A DNA stretch of 64,000 bases from Desulfocapsaceae bacterium (GTDB lineage: Bacteria; Desulfobacterota; Desulfobulbia; Desulfobulbales; Desulfocapsaceae), in contig JARLHL010000105.1 of NCBI GenBank assembly GCA_031292275.1, forward strand, positions 1-64,000. The letters run 5' to 3'. This document shows positions 28,096 through 59,660 of the stretch, piece by piece (position 1 is the first letter of the stretch; every line of letters begins with the position of its first letter). A program made the translations under genes and the position numbers. The notes beneath the pieces are model-generated. The model made no database searches and had not been told where the DNA came from. It saw only the letters and a program-made list of their open reading frames with translations.

Positions 28096-28788
28096 TCAGT
28101 TCTTGCAAATTTCAACAATATTATGAATATGTATTCTTGAAGAGTCAACATAATGGACACTGACTTCATCGGCTGTGACAAGCAGGGGAATTGCAGCGGA
28201 TCCTGCAATGAGGCCGTCAATATGTTCATCCTTAATGATCCTGTCGATAATGGCCAGGATATTCTTTTTTGTCCCCTCTTTAAGAACGCTGGACCTTCCA
28301 ACGGAGGAAATTGCGTTGTGGATAAAATCCTGCTCCTCGGGGTTGGGGAGGACAAGCCGGATTTCCTCTTTTTCGAACATCTGCCGAAAGCAATCACTTT
28401 CCATCGTGACCTTTTCCCCCAGCAGGCACAGATTCCGTAAATTATGCTGTATCGTGTAATTCAGGGTGGCATCAACCACACTGACAAGAGGCAGAAAGGT
28501 CTGAGACTGAATCTCATCAAAGGCCACATGGAGGGCAGTCGATGCTATGGCACCGAAGGCGGCCCCTCCGGCCCGCAGCACTTCAAATTTCGAGGCGATG
28601 AATTCAGAGACCTGATCCCATCTGGAATTGTCGACATGAAACATCGCCCTCTTCATATCGATACTCTCGACGGCTATTTCCGGATAGCCATGCTCTTCGA
28701 AGGCTGGGCTGCATGCATCGATTATTCCGCGATAATATGCGATGGTTGACACAGGATCAATTCCGCCGACAATACCAACCTTTTTCAT
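28096..28788 (-). CDS. Aspartate/glutamate racemase family protein lacking both catalytic cysteines
   Basis: The 230-aa product has the racemase fold: VGIVGGIDPVSTIAYYR at the N-terminus and two half-domains. Active members use two cysteines, in a CNT motif and in a GCTE motif. Here the first reads IASTALH (Ser83) and the second AGSAAIPLL (Ser197), so both cysteines are serine and the flanking Asn, Thr and Glu are lost too. E. coli YgeA is known to use Thr and Cys at these sites, but losing both is more extreme. The rest of the fold is intact and the frame unbroken, so a changed or binding function is likely rather than decay. The start follows GAGGGAA. Confidence 0.85.
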   Translation of the reverse strand: MKKVGIVGGIDPVSTIAYYRGIIDACSPAFEEHGYPEIAVESIDMKRAMFHVDNSRWDQVSEFIASKFEVLRAGGAAFGAIASTALHVAFDEIQSQTFLPLVSVVDATLNYTIQHNLRNLCLLGEKVTMESDCFRQMFEKEEIRLVLPNPEEQDFIHNAISSVGRSSVLKEGTKKNILAIIDRIIKDEHIDGLIAGSAAIPLLVTADEVSVHYVDSSRIHIHNIVEICKN

Positions 28789-28833: not shown

Positions 28834-29595
28834 TTATTCGTTTGTCAGTCCGCAGGCTGCACAGTCCGGACGCCGTTTGAGACTGATTTTCCTGAAGTCC
28901 ATGGTCAAGGCATTGAAGGTGAGCAAGGTGTCTGTCAGCAGAGTACCGACACCTGTCACGAACTTCAAGGCCTCAGCCGCCTGAATTGTCCCCAGCATCC
29001 CGGCTACGGCCCCCAGGATTCCGGCCTTGGAGCAGGTGTTGGCGATATCATAAGGCGGAGGATGTCTAAAGACGCAGCGATAACAGGTGCTTTTCCCAGG
29101 GAGAACCGTCATGGTCTGGCCGTCATACTGCAGAATTCCCCCATGAGAGAAAGGGATCCCGGCAGATATGCAGGCATCATTGATGAGAAATTTTGTTGGA
29201 AAATCATCCGTGCCGTCAATAATGAAATCGTACGCCCCTATGATTTCTGCAATGTCTCCTGCCTGAAGACGCCGGTAATAGATCCGCAGATTGACCTCGG
29301 GATTGAGGGCCAGGAGTTTCTCTTTGGCGGAATCGACCTTGGCCTTACCGATATCTTTTGTATAATGCACAACCTGTCGCTGCAGATTTGAAAGATCAAC
29401 CGTATCACCGTCAATCAGTCCCAGGGTCCCCACGCCGGCGGCAGCGAGATACAGCGAGACCGGCGAACCCAGGCCTCCCACACCGACAAGCAATATCCGG
29501 GCGGAGCGAAGCCGTTCCTGTCCGTTGACCCCGATGTCCTTGAGAAGGATCTGCCGGCTGTAACGTTCAAGCTGCTCTTTGCTGAATACAGGCAT
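28834..29595 (-). CDS. MoeB/ThiF/HesA-family adenylyltransferase (E1-like)
   Basis: These enzymes adenylate the C-terminal glycine of a small ubiquitin-like sulfur carrier such as MoaD or ThiS. The 253-aa product has the nucleotide loop LLVGVGGLGSP (from residue 35), the DTVDLSNLQRQ motif, DGTDDFPTKF, a candidate catalytic Cys188 (NTCSKAG) and two zinc pairs (Cys171/Cys174 and Cys245/Cys248). There is no C-terminal rhodanese domain. moaD, thiS, thiG and moeA are not in the window, so MoeB and ThiF roles cannot be told apart; moaA at 11096 slightly favours MoeB. The small gene at 29645 lies 49 bases upstream. Confidence 0.9.
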   Translation of the reverse strand: MPVFSKEQLERYSRQILLKDIGVNGQERLRSARILLVGVGGLGSPVSLYLAAAGVGTLGLIDGDTVDLSNLQRQVVHYTKDIGKAKVDSAKEKLLALNPEVNLRIYYRRLQAGDIAEIIGAYDFIIDGTDDFPTKFLINDACISAGIPFSHGGILQYDGQTMTVLPGKSTCYRCVFRHPPPYDIANTCSKAGILGAVAGMLGTIQAAEALKFVTGVGTLLTDTLLTFNALTMDFRKISLKRRPDCAACGLTNE

Positions 29596-29644: not shown

Positions 29645-29899
29645 TCAGCCCTCTTCTCCCCAATCCGGGATGTGCCGAAGGACATAGTCCTGCACGCAGG
29701 ATTTTTCCATCGACTTGCCCTCCGCCTTCAGCGCATCCTTCACCTCTTGATAATCAAACCAGCAGACCTCCTGATCCTCGTAGTTATATACCGTTAAGAT
29801 CCGCTTGTCCTCATTGTGGATGTCCTCTTCCTCCTGGATGGCTGCGACAATCTTCAGGGCATCTTCAAGAGAGAAGAACCGCATTGTTTTTTCTTCCAT
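29645..29899 (-). CDS. Small acidic protein of unknown function
   Basis: I do not recognise this 84-aa protein. It is rich in Glu and Asp with a predicted alpha-beta mix: SLEDALKIVAAIQEEE, then a strand ILTVYNYEDQEVCWFDY, then two helices, ending DWGEEG. It has two cysteines and no membrane segment. The gene looks real because the ATG at 29899 follows GAGAGGTGATG at a good distance and it is packed between rpmB and the MoeB-like gene. The C-terminus is not Gly-Gly, so it is not an obvious sulfur carrier for its neighbour. A regulator or partner of the MoeB-like enzyme is possible but unsupported. Confidence 0.6.
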   Translation of the reverse strand: MEEKTMRFFSLEDALKIVAAIQEEEDIHNEDKRILTVYNYEDQEVCWFDYQEVKDALKAEGKSMEKSCVQDYVLRHIPDWGEEG

Positions 29900-29980: not shown

Positions 29981-30175
29981 TTACGCCGGTTTCACCACGG
30001 CTCCGGAACGTATACAGCGGGTGCACACTCTCGCATGGGCTGTGCCGCCCTTATCGGTGACCAGACGAACCTTCTTCAGGTTGGGGAGCCAGCGCCGCCG
30101 AGTTTTATTGTGAGCATGGGAAACATTATTTCCAGTGGCCGGACCCTTTCCGCAAATCTGACATACCTTAGCCAT
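29981..30175 (-). CDS. rpmB: 50S ribosomal protein L28
   Basis: L28 is a small protein of the large ribosomal subunit. The 64-aa product has [19 protein letters not shown], shown as CQICGKGP and VSHAHNKT, and the basic [12 protein letters not shown] second cysteine pair (CTRC) pairs with the first CxxC, so this is the zinc-binding (C+) form. Length is typical of the shorter bacterial type. The start follows AAGGAGAG. It is a single-gene unit closed by the terminator at 29917-29959; rpmG is not adjacent. Confidence 0.97.
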
Positions 30176-43424: not shown

Positions 43425-44666
43425 ATGACAGATTTGCAACAGAGAATAGTTATAACGGGTGTTGGTCTCGCCGCCCCCAACGCGAATACCATCCAGGACT
43501 TCAGAGCCAAGCTCCTGCGGGGGGAAAGCAATATCCAGGAGATTGACTTACGGTACTTCGGCAAGGCGCCTGCGGGCTTATGCAGCTTTCCCGAGACACA
43601 ATACCGCAAAAAAAAGGATAACAAAAGGGGAACACGTGCCGGTTGTCTTGGCGTATATTGCGCCCATGAGGCCATCAGGGACGCCGACCTCTCCCTTGAA
43701 TATTATGACAAATCGCGTATAGGCGTCTATATAGGCCTGACCGAGCACGGCACAGTGGAAACGGAGAATGAGATCTACAATATCAGCCAATATGGCTATA
43801 ATGTTGATTATTGGACGCATCACCACAATCCGCGGACCGTCTTGAACAATCCTGCCGGCGAAATAACCATGAGCCTGGGGATCACCGGACCGCATTATTC
43901 CATAGGGGCGGCCTGCGCGGCAGGAAATGCCTCTCTGATCCAGGGCGTGCAGATGCTGCGTCTGGGGGAGGTAGACATGGCCCTCGCCGGCGGCGTTTCG
44001 GAATCCACCGGTTCTTTCGGCATTTTTGCCAGTTTCAAGGCCCAGGGGGCGCTTGCCTCTGCCCCTGATCCACGCCAGGCCTGCCGCCCTTTCGATAAAA
44101 ACAGAAATGGCATTGTTGTCTCCGAGGGAGCGGCCATCTATGTCCTTGAATCCCTGGAAAAGGCCCTTGCGAGAAACGCCCCCATCTATGGAGAGATTGT
44201 CGGATACGCCATGAATTCCGACGCCAACGATTTTGTGCTTCCACTGGGCGAAAGGCAGGCCGAGTGCATGCAATTGGCATTGAACCGGGCTGGGATGAAG
44301 CCGCAGGATATCGATATCATCAGTACCCACGCCACCGGGACTCCGCAGGGCGATATTGAAGAATGCAAGGCAATTCGCCAAGTCTTTGACAACTGTCCCA
44401 CTACCTATCTGAATAACACCAAGAGCATTATAGGGCATGCCATGGGAGCAGCAGGCGTTCTGGAACTAGCCGGGAACCTTCCTTCTTTTCAGGATAATAC
44501 TGTACACCCGACTATCAATGTACAGTCGCTTGACCCGGAATGTTTCCTGCCGAATCTGGTCATGAATAAACCCCTGCAGGTGGAGAACATTTCAACAATC
44601 CTGAATAATTCTTTCGGGATGGTCGGAATCAACTCGACTGTGATCATAAAGAAATATACAAGATAG
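43425..44666 (+). CDS. Beta-ketoacyl-ACP synthase (FabF-like ketosynthase)
   Basis: This enzyme condenses malonyl-ACP with an acyl chain. The 413-aa product has the full FabF-type triad: Cys164 in GAACAAGNAS, His302 in STHATGTPQGD and His338 in KSIIGHAMGAAG, plus Lys333. So it should be active and decarboxylative, unlike an OleA or a chain-length factor. It opens a co-directional set with an ACP, two CrtI-like flavoproteins, a ketoreductase and a dehydratase, which points to a dedicated acyl product and not bulk fatty acids. A 166-base gap with an inverted repeat separates it from the ACP gene. Chain length and substrate cannot be read from the sequence. Confidence 0.93.
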   Translation: MTDLQQRIVITGVGLAAPNANTIQDFRAKLLRGESNIQEIDLRYFGKAPAGLCSFPETQYRKKKDNKRGTRAGCLGVYCAHEAIRDADLSLEYYDKSRIGVYIGLTEHGTVETENEIYNISQYGYNVDYWTHHHNPRTVLNNPAGEITMSLGITGPHYSIGAACAAGNASLIQGVQMLRLGEVDMALAGGVSESTGSFGIFASFKAQGALASAPDPRQACRPFDKNRNGIVVSEGAAIYVLESLEKALARNAPIYGEIVGYAMNSDANDFVLPLGERQAECMQLALNRAGMKPQDIDIISTHATGTPQGDIEECKAIRQVFDNCPTTYLNNTKSIIGHAMGAAGVLELAGNLPSFQDNTVHPTINVQSLDPECFLPNLVMNKPLQVENISTILNNSFGMVGINSTVIIKKYTR

Positions 44667-44684
44667 CAATAATTCTGGAAATAC

Positions 44685-44719
44685 ATGCATCTTTGTAAAA
44701 ATTAATAAAAAAGATGCAT
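44685..44719. repeat. 10-bp inverted repeat between the ketosynthase and ACP genes
   Basis: ATGCATCTTT (44685-44694) pairs perfectly with AAAGATGCAT (44710-44719) across an AT-rich 15-base loop, 18 bases after the ketosynthase stop. No T-run follows, so it may be an operator, an mRNA processing or stability hairpin, or a partial attenuator that sets the ACP level. Confidence 0.5.
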
Positions 44720-44832
44720 CAACTATGGTATATAGAAGGGTTCGCTTTCTTTCAACAGAGGTGAACGATACAGGTAAACAGCTCTTTATACACGCATACA
44801 TCCCCTTACAAAGGGATCATCCGGAGAAGCAC

Positions 44833-45084
44833 ATGACACGTAACGATATAAAAGAACTTATAATGGAGATAATTGCAGATATTGACGAGGATGCTGACTT
44901 CGATAGTCTGAAACCTGATCAGCCGTTACGGGACCAACTGGATCTGGACTCGATGGATTTTCTGGATATCGTCATGGAACTCAGGAAGAGGCATAAGCTC
45001 CAGATCCCAGAAGAAGACTACCCTCAACTCGCTTCCCTGGACAGTTGCGTCAACTACCTTGAACCCCTCCTGAAAGACGCTTGA
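44833..45084 (+). CDS. Acyl carrier protein
   Basis: The 83-aa product begins at the ATG at 44833, preceded by CCGGAGAAG; the frame runs 36 codons further upstream but without ACP-like sequence. The phosphopantetheine site is Ser40 in LDLDSMDFLD, the DSMD variant of the usual DSL. It is acidic, has four predicted helices and is of normal ACP size. It sits 4 bases before the first flavoprotein gene, so it is co-translated with it. It probably carries the growing chain for this cluster only, since the sequence differs from housekeeping AcpP. Confidence 0.92.
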   Translation: MTRNDIKELIMEIIADIDEDADFDSLKPDQPLRDQLDLDSMDFLDIVMELRKRHKLQIPEEDYPQLASLDSCVNYLEPLLKDA

Positions 45085-45088
45085 TCTT

Positions 45089-46474
45089 GTGAGCGTCCCC
45101 TTGCTGATTATTGGCAGTGGCCTGTCAGGACTCGCCGCTGCCATACGGTATGCCAGATTTTCTCCAGACGTTCTTCTCCTTGAAAAACACGCACGAATCG
45201 GCGGGCTCAATTCTTTTTTCCATCGAAACGGCGCTCTGATTGAAACCGGACTGCATGCCATAACAAATTATGCAGAGCCCAAAGACAAAAAAGCCCCCCT
45301 CAACCAGCTTTTCCGTCAGCTGAAGCTTAACAGGAAAGATCTTCCCCTCCAGGAACAGATCCAGAGCGAAATCTGCTTCCCAAACAGGGAGTCTCTTTTA
45401 TTCTCCAATGATTTTAATCTATTTTACAGCCAGGTCGTCTCAAAATTCCCCCGTTTGACCGCCGCATTCGACCAGGTACTTGCAGCAATAAAGGCCTATG
45501 ATCCCTTTCGTGCCCGGCCCTTTATTTCAACCAGATCGTTTTTATCCGACTCTATCCGGGATCCCCTGCTCATAGACATGATCCTGTGCCCTCTTATGTA
45601 TTATGGTTCCTGCAGCGAGAACGACATGGACCTGGGGCAGTTCGTCATCATGTTTCGGGCGATTTTTCTGGAGGGCATGTTTCGGCCTCGGGGGACCATC
45701 AAGGATCTCCTCGACTTTCTGCTCAATCATTACACCGCCTTCGGCGGCAAGATCCGGCTCAACTCCCCGGTGGTAAAAATATGCCACAAGGATAAAAAAG
45801 TCTCCGCGGTCGAACTGGCATCCGGGGAGGTGATTGAATGCGATCACCTCCTTTCCACAATCGGCTACCGGGAAACCCTGCGGCTGCTCGGACAGGATAC
45901 CTCTCATGAATCCCTTACCAGGCTCGGTTTTATAGAGTCGATATTCCGGCTACCGGTGTCATGCAGGCAAGAACTCCCCCTTGACCGGACCATCATCTTC
46001 TACAACCAGGCCGATCGCTTCCGCTATGAACGTCCTCACAGGCATGTCGACTTTAACAGCGGCGTTATCTGTTTCCCGTCGAATTTTCACGGCATCCGTC
46101 CAGAGGGATATTTCGAGATCCGCTCAACCCACCTTGCTGATTATCACAGTTGGAAATCGTTACAATCCTCCCCTTTACTCTATGGGGAGAAAAAACGTGA
46201 ATCATCCCGGCGATCAGTCGAAACCATTGAGAAAATCACTGGCAATTTCAGAAATAACATTGTATACGAAGACACGTTTACGCCCCTTACAGTAGAGCGG
46301 TTTACGGCCAAATTGGAAGGGGCGATCTATGGTCATCCCCGCAAGTTCAAGGATGGTCTGATAGGATATGGGAACCTGTTCCTGGCCGGGACCGATCAGG
46401 GATATCTCGGCATCGTAGGATCCATGCTCAGCGGCATATCCATGGTTAATCGGCATATATTGTCAGCACTCTGA
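45089..46474 (+). CDS. CrtI/phytoene-desaturase-like FAD oxidoreductase 1
   Basis: The 461-aa product has an N-terminal FAD-binding Rossmann fold (LLIIGSGLSGLAAAIRY, then LLEKHARIGGLNSFF in part) and the C-terminal FAD-closing sequence NLFLAGTDQGYLGIVGSM. This is the layout of CrtI-type desaturases, CRTISO isomerases and retinol saturases, which move or remove double bonds in long polyenes. The start is GTG at 45089, 4 bases after the ACP stop. It is related to the next gene product but clearly divergent. Without an enoyl reductase nearby it may reduce, isomerise or desaturate the ACP-bound or free chain. The reaction is unknown. Confidence 0.82.
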   Translation: MSVPLLIIGSGLSGLAAAIRYARFSPDVLLLEKHARIGGLNSFFHRNGALIETGLHAITNYAEPKDKKAPLNQLFRQLKLNRKDLPLQEQIQSEICFPNRESLLFSNDFNLFYSQVVSKFPRLTAAFDQVLAAIKAYDPFRARPFISTRSFLSDSIRDPLLIDMILCPLMYYGSCSENDMDLGQFVIMFRAIFLEGMFRPRGTIKDLLDFLLNHYTAFGGKIRLNSPVVKICHKDKKVSAVELASGEVIECDHLLSTIGYRETLRLLGQDTSHESLTRLGFIESIFRLPVSCRQELPLDRTIIFYNQADRFRYERPHRHVDFNSGVICFPSNFHGIRPEGYFEIRSTHLADYHSWKSLQSSPLLYGEKKRESSRRSVETIEKITGNFRNNIVYEDTFTPLTVERFTAKLEGAIYGHPRKFKDGLIGYGNLFLAGTDQGYLGIVGSMLSGISMVNRHILSAL

Positions 46475-46521
46475 TGTAACCTTTTACAAAAACTCTACTC
46501 TGTTCTTTCCTCCTTTTCCTT

Positions 46522-47937
46522 ATGTGTGTTGACCACGACAAACTCTCCGATAATTATGATGTTATAATTATCGGCTCAGGTCTTGGCGGACTGACCACGG
46601 CCAATCGTCTCGCCTACTGCGGCCATAGGGTACTTCTGCTTGAATTTCATCATCAGCTGGGAGGTCTGGCTACCTGGTTCAAACGGCGCGGTCATATCTT
46701 TGATATCTCCCTGCACGGTTTCCCTTACGGCATGGTCAAGACCTGCAAGAAATACTGGAACCGGGAAATTATGCAGTCAATCGTGCAGTTGAAAAATATT
46801 GTCTTTGACAATCCTCAATTTTCCCTGCGTACGACCTTCACCCGGGAAGATTTTACATCCATCCTCCGGAATTATTTTAAAATCCCCCAGACAACTCTTG
46901 ATAGATTCTTCACCACCGTTGCCGGGATGAATTTTTATGATGATCAATCGATGACGACACGGGAGCTTTTTGATCAGTTTTTCCCCGGCCGCACCGATGT
47001 CCACAGGCTCCTGATGGAGCCGATCACCTATGCCAACGGCTCGACCCTGGATGACCCGGCCATCACCTACGGAATCGTCTTTTCAAATTTCATGAACAAG
47101 GGTGTCTATACCTTTGAAGGCGGGACGGACAAGCTGATCCGGATGATGACCGATGAACTGACCAAAAGCGGTGTCACCATCTGCACCAACGCCAAGGTCG
47201 ACAGGATCATTGTTGAAGATAAAAAGGTTCGCGGGATTGTGACCCGGGGCAAGACCATAAGCGCCAGGGCCGTGGTCTCAAACAGCGGCATTACGAACAC
47301 CATCTATGATCTGGTCGGCAGGGAGGGCTTCTCCGATGATTTTCTGGAAAAAGCCGATGCCATCAGGGTCAACAATTCAAGCTGCCAGGTCTACTTCGGC
47401 ATTAAAAAAGACTCCGTTATCAAGGACGCCGGTGATCTCCTCTTCACCTCGGCCTCCCCGCGGTTCGATTCAGAGGAACTGCTGGACCTGCATACCCGTT
47501 CGAAGACCTTTTCCATCTATTATCCAAAGACCAGACCGGGACATGACAGGCATACTATTGTCGCATCCATGAACAGCCGTTTCGACGACTGGTCCCTTAT
47601 GGATGAAGCGACGTACAAAGAGCAGAAGAAACGTCTGATCGACCGCACCCTGATTGATCTGGAGCGCTATTTTCCAGGCGTGCGGGAAAAGATAGATTGG
47701 ATGGAGGCCGCCACGCCCAAGACCTTCAAACGCTATACCCTGCACACTCTGGGGACCTCGTTCGGCACCAAGTTTGAAGGACTGGATGTCTCCCGTTCCC
47801 TCTATAAAGAAATTGCCGGCCTTTTTCATGTCGGTTCAGTGGGTATCATCATGTCTGGCTGGCTCGGCGCCATCAACTACGGTGTTATTGTCGCCAATGA
47901 TGCCGATGGATTCCTCAGGAGTGCGACAGCTCAATAA
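46522..47937 (+). CDS. CrtI/retinol-saturase-like FAD oxidoreductase 2
   Basis: The 471-aa product shares the fold of its neighbour: DVIIIGSGLGGLTTANRL with HHQLGGLATWF near the start, and GLFHVGSVGIIMSGWLGAIN near the end. FEGGTDKLIRMM and the RFDDWSLMDEATY segment are typical of the CRTISO/retinol-saturase side of the family. Two such genes in tandem beside an ACP and ketosynthase are unusual. There is no clear ribosome site before the ATG at 46522 and the stretch is pyrimidine-rich, so the start is less certain. It is 47 bases after flavoprotein 1 and 2 before the ketoreductase. Confidence 0.82.
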   Translation: MCVDHDKLSDNYDVIIIGSGLGGLTTANRLAYCGHRVLLLEFHHQLGGLATWFKRRGHIFDISLHGFPYGMVKTCKKYWNREIMQSIVQLKNIVFDNPQFSLRTTFTREDFTSILRNYFKIPQTTLDRFFTTVAGMNFYDDQSMTTRELFDQFFPGRTDVHRLLMEPITYANGSTLDDPAITYGIVFSNFMNKGVYTFEGGTDKLIRMMTDELTKSGVTICTNAKVDRIIVEDKKVRGIVTRGKTISARAVVSNSGITNTIYDLVGREGFSDDFLEKADAIRVNNSSCQVYFGIKKDSVIKDAGDLLFTSASPRFDSEELLDLHTRSKTFSIYYPKTRPGHDRHTIVASMNSRFDDWSLMDEATYKEQKKRLIDRTLIDLERYFPGVREKIDWMEAATPKTFKRYTLHTLGTSFGTKFEGLDVSRSLYKEIAGLFHVGSVGIIMSGWLGAINYGVIVANDADGFLRSATAQ

Positions 47938-47939
47938 TT

Positions 47940-48680
47940 ATGACAGAATTTGCGAATAAAAAAGTTATCGTAACGGGTGTGACCAGGGGGATAGGCCTGG
48001 CCATTGCCCAGGCCTATCTTCGAGAAGGTGCAACCGTGATCGGGATCTACCGCCAAAACCAGGAGGCTGCCGACAAATTGCTCGCCGCAAGCCGTCAATG
48101 CCTGAACCAAGTGGTCCTCTATCGGTGTAATGTCTCGGATCCTCAGGATGTTGCATCCTTCTTCAGGCTGATTGAAGAGAGGTTTGCAGATGTGGATATA
48201 CTGATCAACAACGCCGGCATCAGGTGCGATGCAGTGCTGGCCATGATGTCTATACCGGACTGGCAGCGCGTCATCGACACAAACCTGACCGGCACCTTTC
48301 TGATGTCAAAATATGCAGTGCCTCTGATGATGAAAAACAAATGGGGCCGCATTATCACCATAACCTCCCCCGTCGCCTATATGGGCTTTGCCGGGCAGGC
48401 CAATTATGCCGCTTCGAAGGCTGGGCAGATCGGGATGATGAAAAGCCTGGCCAAGGAGACGGCCAGGAAAAAGATCACCGTCAATTGCGTATCTCCCGGC
48501 TTTATCGATACTGAATTCCTTGATGGACTGTCGGAAGAGCAGAAGGCGGATTATAAGAGGATGGTTCCCATGCGCAGGTTTGGAAAACCTGAGGAAGTGG
48601 CGGATGCAGTGCTTTTTCTCTCGTCTGAAAAGGCCGGCTACATCAGCGGTTCCGTCCTTGAAATCAACGGAGGTCTTTAG
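47940..48680 (+). CDS. 3-oxoacyl-ACP reductase (FabG-like)
   Basis: This short-chain dehydrogenase reduces the beta-keto group of an acyl chain with NADPH. The 246-aa product has the cofactor loop TGVTRGIG (from residue 12), NNAG (90-93) and the catalytic set Asn115, Ser143, Tyr156 and Lys160 (NYAASK). All are in place and the length matches FabG. It is 2 bases after the second flavoprotein and 2 before the dehydratase gene, so it belongs to this operon. Serving the same ACP-bound chain is inferred from context. Confidence 0.92.
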   Translation: MTEFANKKVIVTGVTRGIGLAIAQAYLREGATVIGIYRQNQEAADKLLAASRQCLNQVVLYRCNVSDPQDVASFFRLIEERFADVDILINNAGIRCDAVLAMMSIPDWQRVIDTNLTGTFLMSKYAVPLMMKNKWGRIITITSPVAYMGFAGQANYAASKAGQIGMMKSLAKETARKKITVNCVSPGFIDTEFLDGLSEEQKADYKRMVPMRRFGKPEEVADAVLFLSSEKAGYISGSVLEINGGL

Positions 48681-48682
48681 CA

Positions 48683-49147
48683 ATGTCCGCTGAGTCCAGG
48701 ATCACAGCACTTATTCCCCACCGGGAGCCATTTCTCTGGGTCGATAGAATTGTCGCCACAACAGACCGCTCGATAGTAACAGAGAAAGACATCCCTGCGG
48801 ATCTCGACGTTTTTAAGGGACATTACCCGGACCACCCGATTTTACCGGGAGTCCTGCTGTGCGAGGCCGTTTTTCAGACCGGGGCCCTGCTGAGCGCCCA
48901 GATGGATTCCGGCAATACACCCCAAGGGCAGGATCGGATGCCGGTCGTCACCAGGATCGGAGGTGCCAGATTCAAGCGCCCCGTGCTGCCCGGAGATACC
49001 ATCCGGATGAATGTTGAGCTCACGGAAACCGTGTCGTCAGTCTGCTTTTATAAAGGTACGGTCCGGGTAAATGATAAAGTTGCCCTGAAAATCGAATTTG
49101 CAACCACCCTTGCAGACTCCGGAAAAAAGAACCAGACAACGCTATAA
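48683..49147 (+). CDS. 3-hydroxyacyl-ACP dehydratase (FabZ-like hotdog)
   Basis: FabZ-type enzymes remove water from 3-hydroxyacyl-ACP to give the trans-2-enoyl chain. The 154-aa product has LIPHREPFLWVDRI and GHYPDHPILPGVLLCEA, placing catalytic His47 and Glu61. Both are present. It is slightly longer than FabZ because of a loop around residues 73-85. No enoyl reductase follows, so the double bond made here may stay or be handled by the flavoproteins. It is the last gene of the cluster; a weak AT-rich stem and a small GC stem (near 49203-49218) follow before the Tol promoter. Confidence 0.9.
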   Translation: MSAESRITALIPHREPFLWVDRIVATTDRSIVTEKDIPADLDVFKGHYPDHPILPGVLLCEAVFQTGALLSAQMDSGNTPQGQDRMPVVTRIGGARFKRPVLPGDTIRMNVELTETVSSVCFYKGTVRVNDKVALKIEFATTLADSGKKNQTTL

Positions 49148-54769: not shown

Positions 54770-56174
54770 CCTCAACGCGATTAATGGTCTTTATTGCGTC
54801 GATCGCATCGTTTTTCAGTGTTCCGTCAAGGTCTTTCTTCTCCACTGCAGCCTTGAACATCTGCTTGGCCAACTTTGTTTTTCCGGAGTAAAAATAGTAT
54901 TTCCCCAGATAATAGGTTGAATCACCATCTTTCTTCTGGTCAGCCTTTATATGCCCAAGCTCATAATAGACCTGCGCATATTCAGGCATTTCTCCAACAA
55001 CAATTTTCAGTTTCTTCTCAGCCTCCGCCAGATTGTTCAAATTCATCTGCACCTTTGCCAGATAGAATGTTGCATAATAATCCCTCGGATCATTGGAGTA
55101 TGCCCTGGTCAGGGTTGCCAGGGCGCTCTGGGTCCTCCCGGCGGCGAGTTCGATAACTCCCTTATCATCCAAAAGGATATTCCTGTCAGGATAGGCTTTA
55201 ATGACCTCATCAATCAACTGAAGACTGCTGTCGAAATTGTTTTCTTCGCGGTCGAGCTGTGACAGCCCGTATTTTGCCATGGTGATATCGAGTTGAGAGG
55301 AGTGCGGATCTGCAATTTTCTCCGCCAGGAATGACCTGAAATTCGAATGATCATTAGTAATGGACATTATTCTGTATTTGAATCTCAGGAAGGCAAAGTC
55401 GTCCCCGGCCTTGAACTTGGACAGCTCACCCTTATCCTTCACCAATAATGAATCGACATAATCCAGACGTGCCTCCGGATCAGGATGGGTGAGCAGATAT
55501 TGCGGTACCTTGTTGCTCCGATACCGTGTAATCCTCCTCATGGTCTGCAGCATCTTTTCCATAGCTTCCGGATTCCTGCCCATCTTTTTCATCCAGCCAT
55601 AGGAGAGGAGATCAGCCTCCTGCTCGTGCAGGCGGCTGAAATGCAGGTTCATACTCTGATTGGCCGCCATGGAACCGGACAGCAGGGCCTGCGTTGCCAC
55701 CCCTCCTCCCATGGCCATGGAAGCAAGAGCCAGGAGAAGGGTTCCGGCTGAGACAGCATTTCCCTGCTCAATACTGGTGGCCAGATGCCGTTTGACAGTA
55801 TGGCCTATTTCATGGGCCATGACGGCAACCAGCTCATTTTCAGAGTTTACAGCTTCAATGAGACCGGCATAGAAGAAAATCATCCCGGAAAATGCGGAAA
55901 ATGCATTGAATTCTTTGTCATTTATGACAAAAAAACGAAAATCGAAATATTGGGCCCCCGCAACGGACAGGACCTCCTGCCCCAGCGTATTGATATACTG
56001 GTAGAGATCGGGATCATTGAAGAGCGGGAAGGTCGAGCGGACGGTAAAGAGGAGTTTCTCACCTACCTCACGTTCCTCTCCTATGGAAAATCCATATGCC
56101 GGCACCAGGCAATGCATGCTGACCATTGTGAAGGTCATAACAAGAACGCAGACTTTTGTTAATTGTTTTTTCAT
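54756..56174 (-). CDS. M48-family periplasmic metalloprotease, BepA-like, with TPR domain
   Basis: BepA-type proteases act in the periplasm on outer-membrane assembly, including LptD. The 472-aa product has a signal peptide (residues 1-28), the zinc motif HEIGH (His121, Glu122, His125) with Glu186 in EQEAD as third ligand, and a C-terminal TPR-like helical region (about 330-460). The plug segment that E. coli BepA uses is less clear. The start overlaps the oleD stop (ATGA), so it is co-translated with the ole genes. Whether that reflects a shared role or just gene order is unknown. Confidence 0.9.
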   Translation of the reverse strand: MKKQLTKVCVLVMTFTMVSMHCLVPAYGFSIGEEREVGEKLLFTVRSTFPLFNDPDLYQYINTLGQEVLSVAGAQYFDFRFFVINDKEFNAFSAFSGMIFFYAGLIEAVNSENELVAVMAHEIGHTVKRHLATSIEQGNAVSAGTLLLALASMAMGGGVATQALLSGSMAANQSMNLHFSRLHEQEADLLSYGWMKKMGRNPEAMEKMLQTMRRITRYRSNKVPQYLLTHPDPEARLDYVDSLLVKDKGELSKFKAGDDFAFLRFKYRIMSITNDHSNFRSFLAEKIADPHSSQLDITMAKYGLSQLDREENNFDSSLQLIDEVIKAYPDRNILLDDKGVIELAAGRTQSALATLTRAYSNDPRDYYATFYLAKVQMNLNNLAEAEKKLKIVVGEMPEYAQVYYELGHIKADQKKDGDSTYYLGKYYFYSGKTKLAKQMFKAAVEKKDLDGTLKNDAIDAIKTINRVEENKG

Positions 56175-57157
56175 AATGATTGTAGCGAGATGACAAGTCT
56201 TCTCATTCCTTCTTCGTTGTTTACAAGAGGGATATAGCCGAGTTCTTCCCGGGCTCTTGCAATTGAGAAATAATGTGATTTTGCCAGTTGTTCCGCCAAA
56301 AACCGTGTCATTCCGGGTTCTCTGTCAAGAGCCAGTATCTTGTATGCAATCTCCAGAGTCATCCCAATGCCATAGGCGGCGATGAAAGGAACTTTTTTTT
56401 CCAGAATCGCAATACCCGTTCTTTCAAAAAGTTCATTTATCCATTTCCATAAATCGACAGGTTCCCCCTGATTGACGAAATAGGCCTTTCCGGCGGCAAT
56501 GCCCGGAAGATTGTCAGCCGCCAACAAATGCGCATGGGCAACATTATCGACATAGGAGATATCGACCAGGTTCTCTCCCCGTCCTACGATTTTCAACTGC
56601 CCGTTCCTTCCTCTCTCAAGAAGACGGGGGATCAGATGCGGGTCGCCGGGCCCCCAGACAAGATGCGGCCGTATTGCGCAGGTGCTGAGGGAATCCCCGT
56701 TGGCCTGCAGGACCATCCGTTCGGCCAGGGCCTTGGTCTGCGCATAGTGGCAGAGAAAGGTTTGGGGATAGGGCAAGGTCTCGTCGCCGTTGCAGATATC
56801 ATGTCTGTCGAAGACAACCGAGGGGGTAGATGTGTAAATCAGCCGGGCAATTGAATTTTTCCTGCAGGCATGGAGGACGTTTTCAGTGCCGAGGACATTC
56901 ACTGAATAATAGTGCGACCACGGTCCCCATATACCGGTAAGAGATGCCGTGTGAAACAGGGTATCCACACCCCGGCTGCATTCCTCCAGAAATCCACGAT
57001 CCCGGATATCTCCGCAGAAACAGAGCGCCCCCATTTTTTCTATTTCCGGATAGGGATTGCGTCCTGCCACATAACAGGTGATTCCACGCGCAAGCAAGGC
57101 CCGGACAAGGGCTCTGCCGATAAAGCCTCCGCCGCCTGTGACAAGTGCAGTCTTCAT
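56171..57157 (-). CDS. oleD: OleD-like NAD(P)-dependent 2-alkyl-3-oxoalkanoate reductase
   Basis: In long-chain olefin synthesis, OleD reduces the beta-keto acid made by OleA to a beta-hydroxy acid. I chose the ATG at 57157, which overlaps the oleC stop (ATGA); an upstream in-frame start at 57184 is less likely. The product is 328 aa. Motifs are TGGGGFIG, YTSTPSVVF, the catalytic Tyr138-x3-Lys142 (HYAQTKAL), RPHLVWGPGDPHLIPRL and the PGMTRFLAEQL tail, all close to known OleD proteins. It is thus a better match to OleD than to general 3-beta-HSD or epimerase families. Confidence 0.9.
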   Translation of the reverse strand: MKTALVTGGGGFIGRALVRALLARGITCYVAGRNPYPEIEKMGALCFCGDIRDRGFLEECSRGVDTLFHTASLTGIWGPWSHYYSVNVLGTENVLHACRKNSIARLIYTSTPSVVFDRHDICNGDETLPYPQTFLCHYAQTKALAERMVLQANGDSLSTCAIRPHLVWGPGDPHLIPRLLERGRNGQLKIVGRGENLVDISYVDNVAHAHLLAADNLPGIAAGKAYFVNQGEPVDLWKWINELFERTGIAILEKKVPFIAAYGIGMTLEIAYKILALDREPGMTRFLAEQLAKSHYFSIARAREELGYIPLVNNEEGMRRLVISLQSL

Positions 57158-58785
57158 CGCTTCTTTAACTCCAACTCGGCCCATAGGCTCAGTTTCTCTC
57201 TGAATATCTTGGCATTATGCCGTATATCGACAGGAAAGTCATGATGAAAGAGAAAGTGTTTAATATCTCCAGTGAGCCTGCTGCCGGCAGCGAGTTTCCG
57301 GATTTCCTGCAGAAGAAGAAGGTCGTCGACCCGGATATTCTTCTTTTTTTCTATTATCAAAACAGGTTCCTGTAAACCAGGATTATTGATATCCGGAATG
57401 CCGACCAGCGCCGTGCGTCTCACCTGGGGGTGCACATTAATAATGGCCTCACACGGTATGGTGAACAGGTCTTGCTTGTTCGTACGCACCCGATGAGCTC
57501 GCCGGCCGCAAAACCAGAGCCGTCCCTCTCCGTCAAGATAGCCGGTATCTCCCATACGGTGCCAGAATTTCTCACCGTCCCGAATCTTGGAAAATTGCGT
57601 TTCGGCCTCGTTATTGTCATAGGATCGGGTGACGACGCCGCCGGATACAATAATCTCGCCAATAGTTCCGACGGGCAGCGGGCAGGCGTCGTCAAGCTCT
57701 GCAATAACCTCATCCGAGATGGCAATGATCATGATCCGGATACCGGGAAGTGCCCTGCCGACACAGGTTCCGCCGCCCGCCCGAGTCACCTTCCAGGTGG
57801 ACTCCAGGATCTCCCGGCCTTCCATGGAGACGATGGGCAGGCTCTCTGTTGCCCCGTAAGGTGTGTGGATCCTGGCGCCGCTGGGCAGAATGGCCTGCAT
57901 CCTCTGAATCAACTCGCCTGAGACCGGGGCACCCGCCATCAAGACCTGCCGCAGGCTGGTAATTGTTATTCCCTTCTCGATGCAGTATCTGCTGACCACA
58001 TCCCAAATGGCAGGCGATCCGAAGGAGTACGTCACCTTATGGCGATTGATGGAATTCAGAAATTTCACAGGATCCACCTGCGCCGGTTGCGCAGGGTTCA
58101 TGTCCGGGATGACTGAACAGGCGCCAAGTGCGGTGGAAAACAATGCAAACAGCGGAAAGGCCGGCTGGTCGACGTCTGCCGGAGAGATGCCATAATAGTC
58201 CTTGATCAGGCCGAGCTGGGTTGCAAATATCGAGTGTTCGTACCGTACTCCCTTGGGCGGGCCGGTTGATCCCGTGGTGAAGATTATGGCCGCCAGATCA
58301 TCGGCAGCCGGCCGATGAATTTGAAAGTTGCCCGCGCAATGCTGCGATGCCTGCCGGATATCGGCGCCAAAAAGGCCCCAAGAGGCGCCGCAGCAGAATG
58401 CATGCCGGATGGTTGAAAACGGTTTTGGGTATACCTTCCGAAACAGGTGAGCCTTTGGTACACCGATGAATATCTCGGGTCTCACACCAGCGATACAGCG
58501 CAGGAGATTGCGATACCCCATGCCGGGGTCGATGAGAATTACCGGGGCCCCGATCTTAAAGAGTGCAAAAGTCAGACAGATAAAATCTGCAGATGGAGTG
58601 ACCATCAGCATCACCCTGTCCCCTCTCCTGACACCTTTGTCGCTCAGATAAACGGCCAGTTGATCAGAATAGTGCTGCAACTGGGAGAAGGTCAGCGATT
58701 TCCCGGTCTTTGCCTCGATCAAACCAACTTTGTCACTGTATTTTGAGGCTGCTTCTACAAGTGTCTCTGCAATATTAAGGGTCAC
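57154..58785 (-). CDS. oleC: OleC-like beta-lactone synthetase
   Basis: OleC adenylates a 2-alkyl-3-hydroxyalkanoic acid and closes it to a beta-lactone. I prefer GTG 58785, whose GTGA overlap with the oleB stop is typical of coupled genes; the longer ORF from 58854 would overlap oleB more. The product is then 543 aa. It has the AMP-binding loop FTTGSTGPPKGV, the PAFPLFALFSTALG motif characteristic of OleC, YGATESLP and TGYLDGEGRLWFCGR in the C-terminal part. Neighbouring OleB and OleD homologues strongly support this over a plain fatty-acyl ligase. Confidence 0.9.
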   Translation of the reverse strand: MTLNIAETLVEAASKYSDKVGLIEAKTGKSLTFSQLQHYSDQLAVYLSDKGVRRGDRVMLMVTPSADFICLTFALFKIGAPVILIDPGMGYRNLLRCIAGVRPEIFIGVPKAHLFRKVYPKPFSTIRHAFCCGASWGLFGADIRQASQHCAGNFQIHRPAADDLAAIIFTTGSTGPPKGVRYEHSIFATQLGLIKDYYGISPADVDQPAFPLFALFSTALGACSVIPDMNPAQPAQVDPVKFLNSINRHKVTYSFGSPAIWDVVSRYCIEKGITITSLRQVLMAGAPVSGELIQRMQAILPSGARIHTPYGATESLPIVSMEGREILESTWKVTRAGGGTCVGRALPGIRIMIIAISDEVIAELDDACPLPVGTIGEIIVSGGVVTRSYDNNEAETQFSKIRDGEKFWHRMGDTGYLDGEGRLWFCGRRAHRVRTNKQDLFTIPCEAIINVHPQVRRTALVGIPDINNPGLQEPVLIIEKKKNIRVDDLLLLQEIRKLAAGSRLTGDIKHFLFHHDFPVDIRHNAKIFREKLSLWAELELKKR

Positions 58786-59660
58786 GATGCAGTTGAATCC
58801 CCTGTTTTTCTCTGAAAAAAATTCAGCAGTATGGGCGAAATTTCGTCCAGGCAATCATCAAGGATGTAATGGCCGCCATGCACAAAATAATGATGTTCTG
58901 CATCCGGAAAACGGTGACACCATTCCTGATAGAAATACCGGTTAAAACAAAAATCCTTTGCACCCCAGAGTATCAGCATTGGATGCAGGCTGTCTGCCAG
59001 TCCGGCCAGCCCGTTCTCGATCCTAACCAGGGTCTCATAGGAGGGATGGTCGGATGAAAGCGGAATATCGCGGACGAACGCATGGATTGCGACCCTGTTT
59101 TTCCAGGAATCGTAAGGGGAAAGATAGGCCATGGCGACCTTTCTTTCAAGAGGTTTGGTCACAGCCATATGGCTTGCGGGAGCAGCAAATCCATTACAGC
59201 CTCTGACCAACATGGCACCGAACAGCGGCCACCGGCATATCCTGATCCGCAAGGGGATCCGCGATGACCTGAAGGCAGCAGTATTCAGAATAACTATCTT
59301 TGCAATCCGCTCCGGAAAAGAAACAGCATATCCCATGCCGATTGCCCCGCCCCAGTCATGGACTATCAGAGAATTTCTCTCAATTTCGAGATAATTGAGC
59401 AGGGAGGAAAGGTTATCAATATGCGTCTGCAGCCGATATGGATATTTCTGGGGCTTATCAGAGAGTCCGCAGCCCATATTATCCACCGCAATAACCCTAT
59501 ATCTTTCAGCCAAAAGGCTGATCAGGTTGCGATAATAGTATGACCAGGTAGGATTGCCATGAACCATCACGATAACAGGCCCGCTCCCTTCATCAATATA
59601 GTGAAGACGATGACTATCAATGGCATGATATCGGGAAGTGAACGGGTATTGTGGATACAA
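58782..59660 (-). CDS. oleB: OleB-like beta-lactone decarboxylase (alpha/beta hydrolase)
   Basis: OleB decarboxylates the beta-lactone to an alkene; it belongs to the haloalkane-dehalogenase-like hydrolases. The 292-aa product has HGNPTWSYYYRNL (oxyanion and halide-side loop), nucleophile Asp102 in VHDWGGAIG, acid Asp236 in WGAKDFCF and His264 in HGGHYILDD. All three catalytic residues are in place. It is the first of oleB-oleC-oleD; upstream (59661-59911) there is no oleA, only non-coding sequence. A role in degrading alkyl halides is possible but unlikely in this setting. Confidence 0.88.
   Translation of the reverse strand: MYPQYPFTSRYHAIDSHRLHYIDEGSGPVIVMVHGNPTWSYYYRNLISLLAERYRVIAVDNMGCGLSDKPQKYPYRLQTHIDNLSSLLNYLEIERNSLIVHDWGGAIGMGYAVSFPERIAKIVILNTAAFRSSRIPLRIRICRWPLFGAMLVRGCNGFAAPASHMAVTKPLERKVAMAYLSPYDSWKNRVAIHAFVRDIPLSSDHPSYETLVRIENGLAGLADSLHPMLILWGAKDFCFNRYFYQEWCHRFPDAEHHYFVHGGHYILDDCLDEISPILLNFFQRKTGDSTAS

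Follow-up and report, generated by a model that had tools for sequence, protein, structure and literature searches.

The racemase-homologue locus

The window, by which we mean the whole stretch of 64,000 nucleotides that was analysed, carries on its minus strand the genes rpmB, a gene for an 84-aa protein, thiF, and a homologue of the aspartate/glutamate racemases, in that order. The genes at the locus are as follows.

28096 to 28788, minus strand: gene of the Asp/Glu-racemase fold, 230 aa, with the catalytic pocket motifs lost (open frame, profile match, alignment, structure search)
28834 to 29595, minus strand: ThiF/MoeB-type adenylyltransferase gene, 45 bases upstream of the racemase homologue, rate not raised (profile match, rate counts)
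29645 to 29899, minus strand: gene of an 84-aa protein, adjoining thiF in three genomes of the genus, no Pfam or NCBIfam family over cut-off (profile searches)
29981 to 30175, minus strand: rpmB, ribosomal protein L28, a reading of the 64-aa frame made without a family search

The frame of the racemase homologue begins with GAGGGAATTATG and is open for 230 codons, which bears out the intact frame reported in the first-pass annotation. The protein matched the PF01177 Asp_Glu_race profile with 78.5 bits (cut-off 31, E 8e-22) and scored 90.7 bits with the TIGR00035 amino acid racemase model, just below the cut-off of 93.1. The family match alone would label the protein an amino acid racemase, and this label is probably wrong. 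Racemases of the two-cysteine type (PhAspR, MurI) have Cys at both catalytic positions, where the window protein has Ser83 and Ser197, and Cys188 of the arylmalonate decarboxylases, taken as the equivalent of position 197, is likewise Ser by alignment. In the tree the window row groups inside the one-cysteine, PH1733-like clade; of the residue signature of that clade (Cys197 with N84-T85 and T198-E199) all five residues are replaced. The protein has four cysteines, at positions 26, 121, 133, and 228. The source genome (4.14 Mb, 114 contigs) has one further PF01177 match, on another contig; we considered whether it could be a second active racemase copy that freed the window gene and rejected this, as it reads MurI-like by its motifs.

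Residues replaced at the catalytic positions

The alignment held 88 other rows, namely the best 80 of 427 relatives from a genome_contigs scan and 8 from a scan of 58 relatives (the first of two genome_contigs scans for relatives gave no confirmed match). Two pairs of rows are identical and L080 has a stop in its stretch. The clade comprised 84 of the rows, with L010, L011, L031, and L093, which are of the Thr83 kind outside the clade, left out. Against these rows the window gene had the following features.

28750 to 28758, minus strand: D11-P12-V13 in place of G-P-E; G11 and E13 occur in 84 of 84 clade rows (alignment)
28540 to 28542, minus strand: Ser83, the first catalytic position; Ser or Ala in 81 of 84 clade rows (alignment)
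28531 to 28539, minus strand: T84-A85-L86 in place of the N-T-P motif; N84 and T85 occur in 84 of 84 clade rows (alignment)
28414 to 28416, minus strand: E125 in place of T, which 83 of 84 clade rows have (alignment)
28288 to 28302, minus strand: V163-G164-R165-S166-S167 in place of E-I-E-L-G, in the least confident stretch of the model (alignment, predicted structure)
28198 to 28200, minus strand: Ser197 in place of the single catalytic cysteine of the clade (alignment)
28192 to 28197, minus strand: A198-A199 in place of T-E, present in 84 of 84 clade rows (alignment)

The orthologue from the same genus (L041, identical with L004; CAIUQR010000059.1) is 60% identical and has all catalytic motifs intact, and its gapless alignment with the window protein sets IASTALH and AGSAAIPLL of the latter against IASNTPH and LGCTELPLL. 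Cys197 is present in 83 of the 84 clade rows and G11, E13, N84, T85, E163, T198, and E199 in all 84, and every one of them is changed in the window protein, whose losses include, besides N84T, T85A, T198A, and E199A, also G11D, E13V, P86L, T125E, E163V, G167S, and T216S. What is new here is Cys197Ser together with the loss of G11, E13, N84, T85, T125, E163, T198, and E199, all of which are retained in the orthologue of the same genus.

Among the columns invariant in 83 rows, the window protein differs in 8 of 25 (G11D, E13V, N84T, T85A, I104V, E163V, T198A, E199A; 26 columns were counted at first, and column 230, filled in two rows only, was then dropped), and among those conserved at 95-99% it differs in 8 of 20 (I4V, P86L, T125E, F133C, L195A, C197S, L204V, T216S). 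At columns conserved to at least 95% in the clade the window row deviated in 14 of 44, the maximum among the other 84 rows being 3. When the codons at 13 changed positions were compared with the sister gene, 10 differed by two bases, T125E among the two-base changes, and 3 by one base.

The first-pass annotation had placed Ser83 and Ser197 where racemases have cysteine and had reported the loss of the neighbouring Asn, Thr, and Glu; the alignment to the orthologue and VIA-align (below) confirmed the former, and N84T, T85A, T198A, and E199A confirmed the latter. Its statement that both cysteines were changed held for Cys197 and not for position 83, since Ser or Ala is usual there in the clade and only Cys197 was therefore lost in this lineage. 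The alignments did not place Cys121 or Cys133, the alternatives that the annotation had named, at the active site; Cys121 also occurs in L041 to L045, whose active site is complete and normal, and is therefore no substitute.

A clade with one cysteine

Position 83 in the 84 clade rows (from the best 80 of 427 relatives and the 8 others) is Ser in 49, Ala in 32, and Thr, Cys, and Gly in one each, and position 197 is Cys in 83 and Gly in one. In the tree the clade spans bacterial phyla and archaea. The loss of the first cysteine is therefore old and general in the clade. The two-cysteine rule is thus not general (first cysteine absent in 83/84 rows), and annotation rules requiring two cysteines would misjudge a large group. 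The single Gly at position 197 belongs to L099, an acidobacterial member that reads GGTE with its other motifs intact.

Orthologues and nearer relatives were sought in 3 genomes of the genus (matches in 2), in the 58 relatives, and in 93 genomes of the bacterial family (query L004), and the wider scans covered 257 genomes of the order (9 with E <= 1e-45), 395 of the phylum (2 with E <= 1e-50), and 26 of a spirochaete order (3 with E <= 1e-50). Among the matches listed (the 88 rows, and 60 rows from whole genomes, 51 of them distinct), Ser197 was seen in no orthologue beyond the window genome, and among the 60 rows the window gene and L029 alone lacked Cys197; the fragments L028 and L032 end short of position 197. 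The third genome of the genus (G002, 63% complete) gave no match to the racemase homologue, and its contig ends inside thiF. The Ser/Ser pattern, for which conservation within a clade had been proposed as a check, is therefore not a clade character in these rows: Ser83 is common, Ser197 was seen in this genome only, and the other judgeable member of the genus keeps Cys197.

L029 (G025:C19:50100-50759, minus strand) comes from another genus of the same bacterial family and has GGRR for GCTE and SHSLH for TNTMH in an open frame. It is thus a further racemase homologue whose pocket was lost, independently of the window gene; its identity to its other matches (E <= 1e-30, 93 family genomes) is 31-43%, with none closer among them.

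Predicted structure

The AlphaFold2 model of the window protein had a pLDDT of 94.0, a prediction from the alignment of relatives that does not itself show folding, falling to 75 over residues 161-170 (89 in the sister). VIA-align laid residues 1-230 of the model on residues 1-230 of 5hra_B, the E. coli Asp/Glu racemase with D-aspartate (228 aligned, rmsd 1.6, Z 32.5), and because of this pairing positions 83 and 197 of the window protein fall on Thr83 and Cys197 of the E. coli enzyme, of which Cys197 is the catalytic residue. 2zsk ranked fifth in VIA-align (Z 29.7).

Evolutionary rate and selection

In a quick tree, without bootstrap, the window row was sister to L041 (SH-aLRT 99) in a group of seven rows (100) within the clade, with a terminal branch of 0.59 against 0.085 for L041. 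Relative-rate counts with 7 outgroups gave 36-52 changes in the window row only and 9-12 in L041 only, and the window gene has changed 3.5-5 times as much as L041. The corresponding counts for thiF were 16-21 and 10-19, significant with one outgroup (p 0.048) and not with the other 6. By column class, from most to least conserved, the window protein differed from its sister in 8/25, 8/20, 11/34, 27/63, and 38/87 columns; the old conserved columns were given little protection and changed nearly as often as the variable ones.

Such similar rates favour decay, i.e. that selection on the racemase ceased in this lineage and the frame is open by luck, and the absence of the same pattern from any other genome points the same way. 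We consider this explanation unlikely. In a codon model of seven sequences, the estimates of omega were 0.19 for the window branch and 0.084 for all others; equality of the two was rejected weakly (2 dlnL 4.3) and omega 1 on the window branch more firmly (10.8). Among site-class codon models for the window branch, one omega for all columns was best (lnL -4316.97, omega 0.18, or 0.27 with a clock), ahead of scaled family constraints (-4343.69) by 26.7 log units, of a wholly neutral branch (omega = 1, -4322.51) by 5.5, and of a partly neutral branch (-4321.28) by 4.3, the last a small enough lead to count in favour of decay. All codon models were purpose-written scripts, the site-class models with one start each. 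Since synonymous sites are near saturation (pair dS 2.0-3.3), omega is only rough, about 0.2-0.3 on the window branch. The constraint pattern of the family seems to be gone on this branch, but not all constraint.

Against the sister gene the frame has no stop and no indel over 229 shared codons. When the sister gene was mutated neutrally to 92 amino acid differences, i.e. with all of the observed differences taken as neutral, 4.75 stop mutations were expected on average and 0.8% of runs were stop-free, which argues against decay; at 60 neutral changes a stop-free gene was still obtained in 7% of runs, which argues for it. Moreover, the window protein kept 69 of 72 hydrophobic columns against 59.7 (sd 3.0) under neutrality, a number reached in 0 of 3000 runs (0.03-0.09% in repeat simulations at 90 changes), the excess being smaller with Ala left out of the class (P 0.015-0.059 over six definitions). 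Of 16 conserved polar columns it kept 7 against 9.4 under neutrality, not significantly below (P 0.155), while five relatives at a similar distance kept 15-16. The joint chance of hydrophobic columns kept and polar columns lost, under any neutral amount tried, was at most 0.011 with the least favourable class and 0.0004 with the first class, before stops are counted, which again speaks against decay. The suggestion of the first-pass annotation that the gene is kept for another task is thus supported by the codon models, the lack of stops, and the hydrophobic retention, and falls short of proof, the pattern coming from one genome.

Neighbouring genes

L041 lies in the same chromosomal region as the window gene (rpmB, the 84-aa gene, thiF) but directly downstream of a chemoreceptor gene and not of thiF. 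In genome G001, the 84-aa gene and thiF come first, then an oppositely oriented gene for a protein with DisA-type nucleotide-binding and sensor domains, then a dCache chemoreceptor gene, and finally the racemase; because two genes intervene there, thiF and the racemase homologue either became neighbours in the window lineage or were separated in G001. In G002 the 84-aa gene and thiF are both present. Within about 1.5 kb of thiF at nine loci from other genera, we found no copy of the 84-aa gene and no racemase, and thiF was rejected as a functional partner since none of these loci had a racemase nearby. A search for a partner by neighbourhood, in which 919 ORFs from 87 loci and the window were clustered and the 25 largest clusters examined, yielded no broadly recurring neighbour; the most recurrent cluster, read as an ABC-type transporter without a family search, occurred in 14 of 88 stretches and the other groups at no more than 5 loci. 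No Rfam match was present in the window at gathering score, and a conserved block upstream of the 84-aa gene, considered as an RNA element, was set aside because it holds the 64-aa frame read as rpmB.

Elsewhere in the window, an alpha/beta hydrolase, an AMP-binding enzyme, and a 3-beta-HSD-like dehydrogenase stand in a row at 56171-59660 (minus strand), a gene order that presumably resembles oleB-oleC-oleD of long-chain olefin synthesis. At 43425-49147 (plus strand) a ketoacyl synthase and a flavin oxidoreductase (Pfam) are followed by genes read as a second flavoprotein, a FabG-like, and a FabZ-like protein; we read this as an unplaced lipid or polyene cluster.

Interpretation

The explanation we favour, and think probable, is that the window gene encodes a lineage-specific pseudo-racemase, probably folded and kept under altered selection, in the one genome that has it. 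Its ancestors would be Asp/Glu racemases of the one-cysteine, PH1733-like branch. Judging from published work on relatives, Cys197 of that branch, together with N-T, T125, and T-E, should transfer the alpha proton and bind the amino acid. In this species Cys197 became Ser, 9 of the 16 conserved polar positions were replaced (by Ala or Val in five cases), and two new acids, D11 and E125, were introduced, while the protein appears, as a statistical pattern, to have been retained under altered selection for its fold. Its current job would most likely be non-catalytic, such as the binding of a different, less polar small molecule or of a protein partner.

The two acids could alternatively serve as general acid or base for a new isomerase or lyase reaction in the old pocket. 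Their columns have Gly in every one of the 84 clade rows (D11) and Thr in all but one (E125), T125E needs two base changes, the predicted fold is kept, and the superfamily includes decarboxylases and isomerases (excerpts of PMC4996985). The known lyase of this fold, arylmalonate decarboxylase, depends on a single catalytic Cys188 (same excerpts), where the window protein has Ser; moreover, the gene stands in no metabolic operon, its adjacency to thiF is absent in G001, and the only recurrent neighbour is the transporter-like cluster. We regard this reaction as quite improbable.

In a bolder reading, which we offer tentatively, a cofactor-free racemase scaffold would have been stripped, within one genus, of the residues for catalysis and substrate binding and put to a new use, perhaps in sensing an effector or as an enzyme that employs D11 and E125. 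If re-purposing is true, the window gene and its intact, 60%-identical orthologue would be a natural before-and-after pair for an enzyme becoming something else. The two genes are similar enough for one to ask which of the changes do away with racemase chemistry, and what function the scaffold has once that chemistry is lost.

Comparison with known systems

The E. coli EcL-DER/YgeA type (5hra, 5ell, 5elm) shares the fold with the window protein and likewise has no cysteine at position 83 (Thr), whereas it keeps C-T-N-T-M-H and Cys197 and is only 24-25% identical. In excerpts of PMC12838360, Cys197 of this type is catalytic and C197S of EcL-DER is cited as inactive; according to one sentence there, kcat rose and binding became poorer with a 'C197S' substitution, and a protein with Ser at position 197 may therefore retain some activity.

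RacX of Halocola ammonii (Ala79/Cys193) is, like the clade of the window protein, of the one-cysteine type, and is described in the same excerpts as an active, broad-specificity racemase whose C193S mutant was markedly reduced, not described as dead, with N80A, T81A, N121A, and T124A also reduced. In a mapping made here, RacX positions 79, 80, 81, 121, 124, and 193 correspond to 83, 84, 85, 125, 128, and 197 of the window protein with a constant shift of +4, and of the five tested positions besides 79, four (N80, T81, N121, and C193; not T124) map to residues replaced in the window protein.

The behaviour of RacX C193S lends something to the explanation that racemase activity persists in the window protein, the proton being transferred by Ser or by a relocated cysteine; Cys133, new at a column that is 96% Phe, sits in the predicted structure at the start of the helix after T128-M129. 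The inactivity of EcL-DER C197S and the additional loss of N84, T85, T125, and E199 stand against it, and we hold it to be very improbable. By analogy with the published mutants of these two relatives, the window protein should have lost both thiolate-based proton transfer and the canonical binding of amino acids.

Among the titles and abstract openings listed from the open literature we found no description of racemase homologues in which both catalytic residues are absent, and in the literature examined (excerpts of PMC12838360) activity data on Ala83-type homologues were met only for RacX and PH1733. PH1733 of Pyrococcus horikoshii (2zsk), an aspartate racemase homologue cited in these excerpts as inactive on Asp and Glu, was the top Foldseek match of the window protein (E 1.3e-18, 31% identity) and its top PDB sequence match. 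Like the window protein it is without the first cysteine (Ala there); unlike it, PH1733 keeps A-N-T and G-C-T-E, neither of which the window protein has.
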